In this document: in pieces, positions 18,369 through 32,390 of the stretch
Numbering within the stretch: the stretch's first letter is position 1
Layout of the letters: every line of letters begins with the position of its first letter
From: Mesoterricola sediminis
GTDB lineage: Bacteria > Acidobacteriota > Holophagae > Holophagales > Holophagaceae
Length of the DNA stretch: 64,000 nucleotides
Direction of reading: 5' to 3'
Assembly (NCBI RefSeq): GCF_030295425.1
Contig: NZ_AP027081.1
Coordinates: forward strand, 3,579,001-3,643,000
Program-made: the position numbers and the translations under genes
Notes under the pieces: model-generated
What the model saw: the letters and a program-made list of their open reading frames with translations, nothing else
Databases searched by the model: none
Told to the model about the DNA's origin: nothing

Positions 18369-19712
18369 ATGCGCTTCCCGGCCCTGCTCCCCCTGCTCCT
18401 GGCCCTCCTGTCCCCCGCCCGCGCGGAGCCGCCCAAGCGGGAGGCGGCGGTGGTGGCGGGGTACGTGGACGGCGTCAGCCACGATCCGGGGGAGGCCCTG
18501 GCCCTGCGGGCCCACGCCCTGCACGGCGCCTTCGCCTGGGACGTCTTCCGCGTCGGGGCCGACGAACGCCCCCTCGCGCTCCAGGCCGACGTCCCGGCCG
18601 AACCCCGGTTCATCCCCCCCGAGGGCTTCCGCACGGGGGCGGGCTGGCCCGTGACCTGCACGATCCCCCTGTCCCGGGACTGGCCGTCGGGCCTGTACGC
18701 GGTGAAGCTGGCCGACCCCCGGGCCCGCAGCGCCTTCTACGTGCCCTTCGTGCTGCGCGGCCCCCCGGGCCCGCCCGTGGTGGTCATGGCCAACACCTTC
18801 ACCTGGCAGGCCTACAACCCCTGGGGCGGGGGGTCCTTCTACAAGGGCGAGGAGCCCCGGGAACCGGAGGCGGGCTTCGAGACCCTGGTCAGCCTGGCCC
18901 GGCCGGACCTGGCGGCCTCCACCGACAGCCCCAAGGGCCACACGGGCTACGCCGAGAAGCCCATCCACCGGTTCCTGCAGGCGCGGCGGATCCCCTACCG
19001 CCAGATCGCCGACCAGGACCTGCACGGGGACCCCGCGGCCCTGGCGGCCTGCAAGGCCTTCGTGATCACCACCCACGCCGAGTACTGGAGCCGGGAGATG
19101 GTGGACCGCCTCGAGGCCTTCCTGGCCGCCGGCGGCAGCGTCCTGAACCTGTCGGGCAACGTCCTCTGGTGGAAGGTGACGCTGCGTGGCGACCAGCTGG
19201 AGTGCCGCAAGGACCGGGGCCTGCATGCGCAAACCGGCGAACGGGGCGGCCTCTGGAAGGAGCTGGGGGTCCCCAGCCGGCCCCTCCTGGGCGTCCAGTC
19301 CGATCCCCGGGGCCTCCACACCTACGCGCCCTTCCGCGTCCTCGCGCCCGGCCACTGGCTGCTGGCCCGGAGGGGCCTGACCCGGGGCGCCCTCCTGGCG
19401 GCCCACGGGGAGAACCGGGGGGGCGGGTCGGGCGGGGAGACCGACAAGGCCGGCCCCGGCACGCCCCCGGGGGCCGTCCTCCTGGCCCATGGCCTGAACC
19501 CCGGCGACGGGGGCGGGGACATCGTGTTCTTCGAGACGCCGGCGGGGGGCGCGGTCCTCTCCGCGGGGTCCATCAGCGTCGCCGGCTGCCTGGAAACCGA
19601 CGCCACCCTGGCGGACATGGTGGACCGTTTCCTGGTTCGCTACGCCGGCGTGACCCCCCGCCCTTCCGCTTATCGGCCCATTCGATCTCCGGATGCCGCC
19701 CCGTTCCATTGA
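18369..19712 (+). CDS. Secreted N,N-dimethylformamidase-like protein
   Basis: A 447-residue protein with a clear signal peptide (residues 1-18, ending SPARA) and so probably periplasmic or secreted. After an N-terminal beta-rich region (to about 130) comes a region resembling the C-terminal domain of the large subunit of N,N-dimethylformamidase, including FTWQAYNPWGGGSFY and the later ITTHAEYWSREM and AGGSVLNLSGN segments, the last two typical of a glutamine-amidotransferase-like fold. The real dimethylformamidase is cytoplasmic and needs a small subunit not found here, so substrate and activity are unknown. It starts 31 bases after gcdH. Its TGA stop lies inside the -35 box of the next operon. 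Confidence 0.7.
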   Translation: MRFPALLPLLLALLSPARAEPPKREAAVVAGYVDGVSHDPGEALALRAHALHGAFAWDVFRVGADERPLALQADVPAEPRFIPPEGFRTGAGWPVTCTIPLSRDWPSGLYAVKLADPRARSAFYVPFVLRGPPGPPVVVMANTFTWQAYNPWGGGSFYKGEEPREPEAGFETLVSLARPDLAASTDSPKGHTGYAEKPIHRFLQARRIPYRQIADQDLHGDPAALAACKAFVITTHAEYWSREMVDRLEAFLAAGGSVLNLSGNVLWWKVTLRGDQLECRKDRGLHAQTGERGGLWKELGVPSRPLLGVQSDPRGLHTYAPFRVLAPGHWLLARRGLTRGALLAAHGENRGGGSGGETDKAGPGTPPGAVLLAHGLNPGDGGGDIVFFETPAGGAVLSAGSISVAGCLETDATLADMVDRFLVRYAGVTPRPSAYRPIRSPDAAPFH

Positions 19713-19737
19713 CAGGAGGCCCCTCCGATCGGATAGT
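19709..19737 (+). promoter_or_regulatory. Sigma-70 type promoter of the aromatic operon
   Basis: A perfect TTGACA at 19709-19714, a 17-base spacer, and GATAGT at 19732-19737 (four of six consensus bases). The predicted transcription start, 6-7 bases after the -10 box, falls on or next to the A of the leader-peptide ATG at 19744. The TGA stop of the upstream gene is part of the -35 box. Confidence 0.8.
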
Positions 19738-19743
19738 TGCCTC

Positions 19744-19827
19744 ATGAGGATGTTCTACGCCTTTACCTGCGCCGCCGGCCGATTCTATTTCGGCTTCGGC
19801 GGTGGACTGGGCAAGGCCGGAGCCTAA
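19744..19827 (+). CDS. Aromatic-rich attenuation leader peptide
   Basis: A 27-residue peptide that is not a normal gene product but reads as an attenuation leader. It begins MRMFYAFTC and continues with GRFYFGFG; seven of the first 18 residues are Phe or Tyr, at positions 4, 5, 7, 14, 15, 16 and 18. It lies directly behind a strong promoter and 23 bases before a terminator-like hairpin, which precedes a gene for phenylalanine biosynthesis. This is the same logic as the pheL leader of enteric bacteria, where ribosome stalling on Phe codons at low charged tRNA prevents termination. The predicted transcript would begin at or next to the ATG, so translation may be leaderless. A nine-base-pair hairpin (19792-19800 with 19816-19824, one G-U) could be the pause structure. 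Confidence 0.82.
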
Positions 19828-19850
19828 GGAAGAACGCGCTCACCCCTTCA

Positions 19851-19885
19851 CCCCGTCCGCCGTTACCGGCGGGCGGGGTCTTCCT
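19851..19885 (+). terminator. Attenuator terminator hairpin
   Basis: A 12-base-pair stem (19851-19862 with 19867-19878, one G-U pair) with loop TTAC, followed by TCTTCCT. It lies between the leader peptide and the start of the fusion gene. A competing pairing exists: GGCGG at 19798-19802 with CCGCC at 19857-19861, extendable by GGG with CCC, which would break this stem and act as antiterminator. The T-run is interrupted, so termination strength is uncertain. Confidence 0.72.
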
Positions 19886-19927
19886 CATCCATCCGGCGAC
19901 GGCGGCATTCCCCACCTGGAGTACCGC

Positions 19928-21946
19928 ATGCACCCGAACCCCGACACCCTGGGCGCCGCCCGGACCCTCATCGACGAGACGGACCGCGAGATCATCCGCC
20001 TCCTGGCCCGCCGTTTCGACGCCGTCCGCTCCGTGGCCCAGGCCAAGGCCACCGACGGGGACCGCCCCATCCTGGACAACGACCGGGAGCGGGGGGTCCT
20101 CGCCGCCTGGCTCCGCGACGCGGAGGCCCTGGGGCTGTCCGCGCCCTTCACGCGCCGGGTCCTCAAGGAGATCCTCAGCCACTCCCGCCGCCTCCAGGAG
20201 CCGCTGGTGGAGGGCAGCCCCGCCAGCGCCCGCCGCATCACCGTGGGCTACCAGGGCGTCCCGGGCTCCCACAGCTCCCTGGCCGCGGCCCACCTCCTGG
20301 CCACCCGCAGCGTCCGGGGCGCCGACCTCCGGGGCTACGCCCTCTTCCAGGACGTGGTGGAGGCCCTCCAGGCCGGGACCCTGGACTACGCCTTCCTGCC
20401 CATCGAGAACAGCATCGGCGGGGCCATCGCCGACGTGAACCGCCTCCTCATCGACAACACCCTGCACATCGTCGACGAGGAGGTGTGGGAGGTGGACCAG
20501 GTGCTGGCGGGCCTTCCCGGCGCCGCGCTGGACCAGGTGCGCACCGTCCGCAGCCACCCCGCGGCCCTCGTGCAGTGCGAGGGCTACCTGCGGGGCCTGG
20601 AGGAGGTGGTGCGCCAGCCCTGGTTCGACACCGCGGGCGCGGCCGAGTCCCTCCTGGAGGACCGGGACCCCGCCATCGCGGCCATCTGCTCCGAGGAGGC
20701 CGCCCGGGCCCGGGGCCTGGACGTCCTGGCGACGGGCATCGCGGACCAGGAGCGCAACGAGACCCGCTTCCTCCTCATCGCCCGGGAACCGGAGGGCCCC
20801 GATCCCCGGGTGCCCGCCAAGACCTCCCTCGTCTTCCGGCTCAACCACCACGAGGGCACCCTGGCCAGGGCCCTCGGCATCCTTTCCGCCGCGGGGGCCA
20901 ACCTCACCCGCATCGAGAGCCGCCCCCTGCCGGCCACGCCCTGGGAGTACCTGTTCTTCGTGGACGTGGAGGGCAACCAGGCCTCGCCCCACCTGGCCCG
21001 GGCCCTGAAGGAGCTGCGGAGCGCCTGCAACCACCTGCGCGTCCTCGGGAGCTACCCCCACCGGGCCCGGGGCGCCGAGCCCGCGATGGAGCAGGTCCCC
21101 GCGGTCCTGGAGCCGCCCGCGCCCCTCTCCTGCGCCGTGGAGCCCGAGCCCGCGCCGCCGCGCCCGGGCCGGGTCCGGGTGAACGTCGGTCCCATCCAGG
21201 TCGGCGAAGGCGCCTTCGTGCTGATGGCCGGCCCCTGCGCCGTGGAGAGCCGCGACCAGATCCTGGAGGGGGCCCGCATGGTCCGGGCCGCCGGGGCCGC
21301 CATCCTCCGGGGCGGCGCCTTCAAGCCCCGCACCTCCCCCTATGCCTTCCAGGGCCTCGGCCTCGAGGGGGTGGCCCTGCTCAAGGAGGCCGGGCGGGAG
21401 ACGGGCATGCCCACCGTCACCGAGATCCTCACCCAGGAGGACATCCCCGACGTGGCCCCCCATGTGGACATGCTCCAGGTCGGCGCCCGCAACATGCACA
21501 ACTTCGCCCTGCTCAAGGAGCTGGGTCGCCTGGACAAGCCCATCCTCCTCAAGCGGGGCATGAGCGCCACCCTGAAGGAGTTCCTCCTGGCCGCCGAGTA
21601 CATCCTCGCCGGGGGCAACCAGCGGGTGATCCTCTGCGAGCGGGGCATCCGCACCTTCGAGACCGCGACCCGCGCCACGCTGGACCTGAGCGCCGTGCCC
21701 GTCCTCAAGCGGATGACGCACCTGCCGGTGATCGTGGACCCCAGCCACGCCGCCGGGGAACGCGAGCTCGTGGTGCCCCTGGCCCTGGCCGCCGCCGCCG
21801 CGGGGGCCGACGGCCTCATCGTGGAGGCGCACCCCTGGCCGGAGACGGCCCTGTGCGACAAGGCCCAGGCCCTCACCCGGGAGGACATGGCGGCCCTGGC
21901 CGCGGGCCTGCGGCCCATCCTCGCGTCCCAGGGGAGGGCGTGGTGA
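19928..21946 (+). CDS. Trifunctional chorismate mutase / prephenate dehydratase / DAHP synthase
   Basis: A 672-residue fusion of three enzymes of aromatic amino acid synthesis. Residues 1-92 are an AroQ-type chorismate mutase ([14 protein letters not shown]). Residues 102-288 are prephenate dehydratase, with PIENS at 158-162 and the catalytic NETRF at 277-281. Residues 298-376 form an ACT domain with the ESRP motif (330-333) that binds phenylalanine in PheA proteins. A Pro/Ala-rich linker (about 377-418) leads to a type I-beta DAHP synthase (about 420-672) with [22 protein letters not shown], the metal-ligand region VDPSHAAG and EAHPWP. One chain thus performs the first step of the shikimate pathway and the conversion of chorismate to phenylpyruvate. 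The ATG at 19928 follows GGAG and sits at the start of the mutase domain. Regulation by the upstream leader is very likely. Confidence 0.93.
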
Positions 21947-23109
21947 AGCTCAACGCGCGCGCGGCCGGCGCCGGCCTCTCCCCCACCATGGCGGCCGCGG
22001 CCCGGCCCAGCCGCCATCCCGACCCCATCGACCTCACCGTGGGCGAGCCCGAGGGCCCGCCCCCGCCGGAGGTGCGCGAGGCCGCGGCCCGGGCCGCCCT
22101 GGAGGGACGCGCCCGCTACGGCCCCGTCCAGGGCCTGCCCCGGCTGCGGGAGCTCCTCGCCCGCGACCTGTCGGCCCGGGACGGGGTGGCGCGGGACCCG
22201 GACGACGTGCTCGTCACCGCCGGCGGCAAGCCCGCGATCCTGGACGCCCTGCGCTGCGTCCTGGAGCCCGGGGACGAGGTCCTCATCCCCCTCCCCGCCT
22301 GGCCCACCTTCCGGGACCAGGTGGCGTGGGCGGGGGGGATCCCGGTGGCCGTGGGCCCGGACCCCGGGCTCCTGCCCGCCCCGGGCGCCCTCGCCGCGGC
22401 GGCCACGCCGCGCACCCGGGCGGTGATCCTCAATCAGCCCTGCAACCCCACCGGCCGGGTCTGGGACGCCCCCCGCCTCGCGGAGCTGGCCACCCTGGCC
22501 CGGGACCGGGATCTCCTCGTCATCGCCGACCAGGTCTACGGCACCCTCACCCTGGACGGTCCCGAACGGCCCCTCCTGCGGGCCCACCCGGAGCTGGCGG
22601 ACCGCACCCTCGTCGTGGAGAGCTTCTCCAAGCGCTTCGCCATGACCGGGTACCGCCTGGGCTGCGCCGCGGGCCCCCGCGCCCTGGTGCGGGCCATGAC
22701 GGCCCTGGCCTCCACCAGCGTCACCCACGCCTCCATGCTCGCCCAGCATGCGGGCATCGCCGCCCTGGCGCTGGACGGGACCTGGGAGGCCGCCGTGCGC
22801 GACGGCCTCCGCCTCCGCCGCGACCGCTTCCAGGCGGGCCTGGCGGCCCTGCCCGGCCTCACCTGCCAGCGGCCGGAGGGCGCCCTCTACCTCTTTCCCG
22901 GGGTCGGCGCCTGGATGGCCGACCATGGGGTGGCCACGGACGGAGAGCTGGCCGATCGTCTGCGGGACGCCGCCGGCGTGAAGGTCCTGCCCGGCACCCC
23001 CTTCGGAGCCCCCGGCCACCTGCGGATCTCCCTGGCGGCCCCCCTCCCGGACCTGGACCGGGCCCTGGCCCGCCTCACGGACTTCTTCAGGAATGCGCCC
23101 GCCGGCTGA
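21943..23109 (+). CDS. PLP-dependent aminotransferase, probably aromatic
   Basis: A 388-residue class I/II aminotransferase. [13 protein letters not shown] and the PLP-lysine motif [15 protein letters not shown] are present, and the C-terminal arginine region HLRISLA binds the substrate carboxylate. The GTG at 21943 overlaps the stop of the fusion gene (GTGA) and lies four bases after GGGGAGGG. Since the upstream protein yields phenylpyruvate, the likely job is transamination of phenylpyruvate (and perhaps hydroxyphenylpyruvate or prephenate) to complete phenylalanine or tyrosine synthesis. The family also includes aspartate aminotransferases, and specificity cannot be read from the sequence, so the aromatic role rests on operon context. 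Confidence 0.87.
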
Positions 23110-32223: not shown

Positions 32224-32314
32224 CGGGCCTTCCAGGAAGCGAACGGGTACCCGACCAGAATAGTCGGGTACTGTCCGTTTCCCAAGTTCCCGCGGTCGCC
32301 GGTTCGTGATTGAA

Positions 32315-32370
32315 TGGCGGTGGCGATGGTGTCCGCCCTGTAACCGCCCCGATGGCTGATGGCGCCTGAC
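32315..32370 (+). promoter_or_regulatory. Fluoride riboswitch (crcB motif)
   Basis: The leader matches the fluoride aptamer consensus: GGCGATGG-GTCCGCC, TAACCGCC, then GGCTGATGGC-CCT. The GGCG stem (32322-32325) pairs with CGCC (32334-32337). The loop GGTGTC (32328-32333) pairs with GGCGCC (32361-32366) as the conserved pseudoknot, with two G-U pairs. A switch to translation control is visible: CGCCT (32363-32367), the 3' pseudoknot strand, can instead pair with AGGCG (32384-32388), which contains the ribosome binding site of the ClC gene. Fluoride binding would free the site and turn the transporter on. Confidence 0.9.
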
Positions 32371-32390
32371 TTTTCCCCTGCGGAGGCGGC

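Follow-up and report, generated by a model that had tools for sequence, protein, structure and literature searches.

A probable ribosome-stalling attenuator with phenylalanine and tyrosine codons upstream of a CM-PDT-DAHP synthase fusion gene in Mesoterricola sediminis

The window analyzed here, a 64-kb stretch of the Mesoterricola sediminis genome (G000, a single 4.52-Mb contig), carries on its positive strand a gene for a 672-aa CM_2-PDT-ACT-DAHP synthase fusion (19928–21946). These domains unite the first shikimate step and the reactions leading from chorismate to phenylpyruvate in one protein. The initial annotation had described a gene for the conversion of chorismate to phenylpyruvate; the CM-PDT assignment was confirmed, but the gene does not serve the phenylalanine branch alone, since DAHP synthase is also fused. 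A class I/II aminotransferase gene on the same strand (21946–23109, exact start not fixed) abuts or overlaps the end of the fusion gene and probably belongs to the same operon. Among named records, the close relatives of the fusion gene come from Holophaga and Holophagaceae of the phylum Acidobacteriota. On the upstream side, a co-directional gene (18369–19709) ends about 30 nt before the ATG of a short leader ORF. Elsewhere in the window, a fluoride riboswitch (Rfam RF01734, 46.8 bits) is located at 32313–32375.

The leader ORF comprises 27 codons on the positive strand (19744–19827) and has homologous leaders in eight other genomes with the fusion gene. Phenylalanine or tyrosine is found at codons 4, 5, 7, 14, 15, 16, and 18, seven of the first 18 positions. 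These form two control-codon clusters: UUC UAC GCC UUU at codons 4 to 7 (19753–19764), where Phe/Tyr is kept in relatives, and UUC UAU UUC GGC UUC at codons 14 to 18 (19783–19797), in and beside the loop of a pause hairpin. Among the 209 ATG ORFs of 15 to 60 codons on both strands of the window, the leader was the only one with more than five Phe/Tyr per 18 codons, and seven were reached by 1 of 20,000 dinucleotide shuffles of positions 19713–19927. The Phe/Tyr-rich ORF with two clusters, first noticed in a reading of the sequence, is thus borne out by codon positions and shuffles. Because the same frame extends without a stop to a further ATG at 19693, which precedes the promoter, the leader start at 19744 is a presumed one.

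A TTGACA promoter had also been proposed ahead of the ORF and is indeed present: TTGACA (19709–19714) and GATAGT (19732–19737), 17 nt apart on the positive strand, form a predicted promoter (19709–19737) that matches 10 of 12 consensus bases. Only 0.1 such sites are expected locally, and the match is the best in the 60 kb scanned, tied with one other site. In eight of the nine fusion genomes, promoter-like elements lie directly upstream of the leader (weakly so in G031) rather than downstream of 19830. In M. sediminis, the −10 element is separated from the leader ATG by 6 nt, which leaves no room for a ribosome-binding site, versus 16 to 21 nt in relatives, mostly with a sequence resembling such a site. 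Because transcription is predicted to start at about 19744, on the leader AUG itself, translation of the M. sediminis leader may be leaderless. A precedent is the ilvBNC leader peptide of Corynebacterium glutamicum, described in PMC4046766, with reference to Morbach 2000, as made without a ribosome-binding site; that case differs in concerning branched-chain amino acids in Actinobacteria.

Three helices on the positive strand, all with covariation, make up the rest of the element. The pause hairpin (1:2; 19759–19817, core 19771–19803) encloses the second control cluster. In the antiterminator (2:3; 19801–19861), GGUGGAC, GGG, and AAGG pair with CCUU, CCC, and GUCCGCC. The terminator hairpin (3:4; 19851–19878), CCCCGUCCGCCG-UUAC-CGGCGGGCGGGG, has a perfect 12-bp stem of −26.5 kcal/mol and ends 49 nt before the fusion-gene start codon; it is exactly the 12-base-pair hairpin that the initial annotation had reported after the ORF. 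The fold of the leader region was more stable than all 200 shuffles (z = −4.4). With the 5′ part masked to mimic a stalled ribosome, pairing of strand 3 with strand 2 was seen in all nine fusion genomes. When RNA up to strand 3 was folded without a ribosome, seven of the nine formed the antiterminator together with the upper part of the pause hairpin; default shutoff may thus be less tight than in Escherichia coli trp.

The tail that follows the stem, UCUUCCUC (19879–19886, positive strand), is a poor U-tract, and the M. sediminis hairpin fails a terminator scan. Runs of U4 to U7 follow the stem in seven of nine fusion genomes, and the U-tract is nearly absent in G031. In the 60 kb scanned, U-run terminators did not clearly exceed the chance level; thus, a weak U-tract may be normal in M. 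sediminis. Two explanations present themselves: termination with less U in this lineage, or a weaker switch in M. sediminis.

The leader ORF and hairpins were present in all nine genomes carrying the fusion gene, whose proteins share 65 to 77% identity over long alignments. Across this set, the leader ATG lies 183 to 211 nt upstream of the fusion gene. The leaders, which include MTAHSATFTFTPAARRYYYGGGGG..., MHSCLITFAFTYAYRRYFGGGGG..., MTTTTFSFTYAYRYFIGGG..., MFTATFAFTRAFRRFTRRG..., and MRPSSFFAFTCAFRQFTWRG..., vary from 23 to 34 codons and drift in sequence, while aromatic codons of the type F.FT.A.RR(F/Y) persist; that of M. sediminis has the highest aromatic-codon density. Base pairs of the pause hairpin are rebuilt between relatives (CCGCCG/CGGCGG, CGTCGA/TCGACG, CCGCCAA/TTGGCGG, and CCGATA/TATCGG). 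Of 33 pairs in the pause and terminator helices, 13 changed on both sides, as opposed to a shuffle mean of 4.2, with 0 of 500 shuffles as high, and pairing dropped when the alignment was slid. Covariation was weaker in the antiterminator, where 4 of 13 pairs changed on both sides (a count reached by 6 of 500 shuffles) and pairing was 85.5% versus at most 54% when slid. Since sequences within groups are related, these pair counts overstate independence. Retained aromatic codons, drifting flanks, and compensatory stem changes, the pattern that the initial annotation had expected of a genuine leader, were therefore found in all nine genomes. The leader has different upstream neighbors among them; in G001 the neighbor is transcribed divergently, which means that the hairpin cannot be explained simply as the terminator of a preceding gene.

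Ninety-three genomes of the class were searched with an RNA model of the element. Strong matches were confined to the nine fusion loci (E of about 1e-24 or better) and a second copy in G003 (E = 4.7e-20). Three further matches were weak. In G014 the match precedes the unfused pheA, while the other two precede leuA and have the leaders MRTNLSLNLLLALPLSGAGED and MRTSLSLNLLLALPLSGAGED. The second G003 copy (L185; C267:3291–3435, minus strand) has an aromatic leader, MPTFTFTYAYAYRWFTGGGGVMGGALS, with a terminator; it does not directly precede a recognized aromatic gene, and about 2.3 kb further on there is an aroD-like ORF.

Leaders of the same kind occur before other genes and provide independent parallels that favor the attenuator reading. 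In genus g4 and its allies, unfused CM-PDT genes follow leaders such as MSTSRRFFFFSFRTSGARLSGV with a CCCCCGAG...CTCGGGGG-TTTT terminator, and Phe is kept there through TTC/TTT changes. In family f2 of the same class (L012, L015, L017, and L019–L022), FYFYYFYF leaders with terminators, for example MKMVNSTFGRQFYFYYFYFNR, precede an operon of DAHP synthase (aroF), aroA, CM/PDT, tyrA, and an aminotransferase. In M. sediminis itself, leuA is preceded by a leader rich in Leu, MFSLNVLNLHLGLLLISGAGED, with a hairpin (L189; C1 near 4090500, 1330–1450), and the tail after this hairpin is likewise poor in U; Leu leaders also precede leuA in g4 genomes. Similar leaders were seen before leuA in G095 and G089, where little 5′ UTR is predicted as well. 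A search of the M. sediminis genome for His runs found no short his leader ORF.

The ratio of Phe to Tyr codons was 104:4 in 24 leaders of unfused pheA, 29:20 in the nine fusion leaders, and 33:29 in the seven f2 leaders. Fisher tests gave about 1e-8 and 1e-11 for related sequences that represent two or three independent cases. Since DAHP synthase feeds both amino acids, leaders with Phe and Tyr codons make sense on its genes, and this reading agrees with the enzymes that the M. sediminis fusion comprises. The codons present suggest that the leader might respond to Tyr as well as Phe. Caution on dual sensing is advised by the C. glutamicum aroR leader, which carries Phe-Tyr-Phe and yet responds to Phe, not Tyr (PMC11802643). 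We tentatively propose, with considerable reservation, that specificity in Acidobacteriota may follow architecture, with near-Phe-only leaders on CM-PDT alone and Phe-plus-Tyr leaders on DAHP synthase-bearing genes or operons, and that translation of the M. sediminis leader may be leaderless and its hairpin may terminate without a proper U-run.

We interpret the element as a classical ribosome-mediated transcription attenuator of the trpL/pheL type, with an estimated probability of about 0.88. The initial annotation had favored ribosome-stalling attenuation, and nine-genome conservation, covariation, and alternative pairing all support it. The conservation of aromatic codons through synonymous TTC/TTT changes and through exchanges with TAT supports translation of the leader. 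From the parts found, their conservation, and their pairing changes, we infer the transcription start, translation, termination, and sensed signal as follows. RNA polymerase would start at or just before the leader AUG, with a ribosome behind it. A shortage of charged tRNA-Phe, and perhaps of tRNA-Tyr, would stall the ribosome on the Phe/Tyr codons, which would open the pause hairpin and leave strand 2 free to pair with strand 3. This pairing would block the terminator and allow read-through into the fusion gene and the aminotransferase gene. With plentiful Phe and Tyr, the ribosome would reach the stop codon, strand 3 would pair with strand 4, and transcription would end near 19879. As judged from sequence comparison, the conserved arrangement points to ribosome stalling as the means by which these bacteria sense a shortage of amino acids.

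Other readings were weighed against this one. Because the preceding gene is co-directional and ends so close to the leader, the hairpin might be its ordinary terminator and the aromatic ORF fortuitous. This is highly improbable, as the leader and hairpins persist beside other upstream neighbors, including the divergent gene of G001, and the leader codons, pause hairpin, and antiterminator covary, none of which a plain terminator needs. The strong structure of the leader could also belong to a T-box, a riboswitch, or a protein-binding leader that senses the amino acid directly, with an incidental ORF. We give this hardly any credence: no covariance model of the Rfam leader families or T-boxes matched at gathering score at the locus or in the relatives, the aromatic codons survive synonymous TTC/TTT changes as well as exchanges with TAT, and the amino acids of the leader vary according to which gene is controlled. 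It is very unlikely that the leader acts on translation of the fusion gene, by coupling or masking of its ribosome-binding site, rather than on transcription. The hairpins do sit between leader and gene, but the 49-nt gap after the last one and the U-run next to it in most relatives are terminator anatomy.

An ancestral attenuator could also have decayed in M. sediminis and no longer respond there. The tail and the missing Shine-Dalgarno site, as against U4 to U7 and a sequence resembling a ribosome-binding site in most relatives, would agree with such decay. We nevertheless regard it as unlikely. Leader peptides lacking such a site work elsewhere, as PMC4046766 relates for C. glutamicum ilvB. 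The terminator stem is perfect over its 12 bp, none of the other eight fusion leaders is as dense in aromatic codons, the promoter shares the top rank in the 60 kb scanned, and the weak U-tract may be normal, since U-run terminators there do not clearly exceed chance.

Leader-peptide attenuation by ribosome stalling has long been known in E. coli. The expression of its pheL-pheA is tied to charged tRNA-Phe (PMC11802643), and the M. sediminis element shares with that system an aromatic leader, a set of alternative hairpins, and a predicted terminator, all ahead of a CM-PDT gene. Unlike pheL-pheA, to which it bears no recognizable sequence relation (no Rfam match), it has a leader with Phe and Tyr codons, a gene fused to DAHP synthase, and a start that looks leaderless. 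The closest tested case is the C. glutamicum aroR-aroF attenuator, in which a Phe-Tyr-Phe leader before a DAHP synthase operon was studied experimentally (PMC11802643, PMC4046766); it differs in phylum and in the absence of a fusion. The uORFC-13-1 motif of Acholeplasma, a predicted Phe-containing uORF beside a terminator before aroF (DAHP synthase) (PMC8632094), comes from another organism group, has another sequence, and is a prediction only. As of 2010, Proteobacteria and Actinobacteria were the groups with known leader-peptide attenuation, and hardly any attenuator in Acidobacteria had an assigned function (PMC2965389). A 2005 survey predicted attenuators before several aromatic operons and did not mention Acidobacteria (PMC1173090). 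In line with the earlier remark that none was established for this organism group, our search of mainly openly accessible papers found no report of such attenuation in Acidobacteriota; an earlier prediction is possible. Several putative attenuators, aromatic and Leu, can now be named in the phylum, and their leader code changes with the enzyme controlled. Such leaders offer a direct route to reading how a little-studied phylum regulates amino acids, and they supply natural variants with which to test the evolution of attenuator specificity upon gene fusion.

We also drew 73 further pheA upstream regions from across Acidobacteriota. Four of them (L228, L233, L248, and L280, from families f13, f70, f23, and f26) had an aromatic-rich short ORF and a hairpin with convincing anatomy, for example MRHFWFYYFAFTYRRSRREGVVGEARALK with a 14-bp hairpin, and two more (L223 and L226) had an aromatic-rich ORF alone. 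Thus, the trait is patchy in the phylum yet extends beyond one family. Outside the phylum, in Syntrophaceae and other Deltaproteobacteria, short ORFs rich in Phe/Tyr/Trp were seen about 450 to 600 nt ahead of aroF/pheA clusters (L088, L090, L094–L096, L099, L112, L114, L117, L118, L120, L121, L123, L125, L128, L130, L133, and L140), most of them followed by a GCCATGG-type hairpin and a T-run. In a MAG labeled Deltaproteobacteria (L084), a leader, MSARARFYFYGFPAASSRSGG, with a G+C hairpin lies about 280 nt upstream of a match to a PDT-DAHP synthase fusion.
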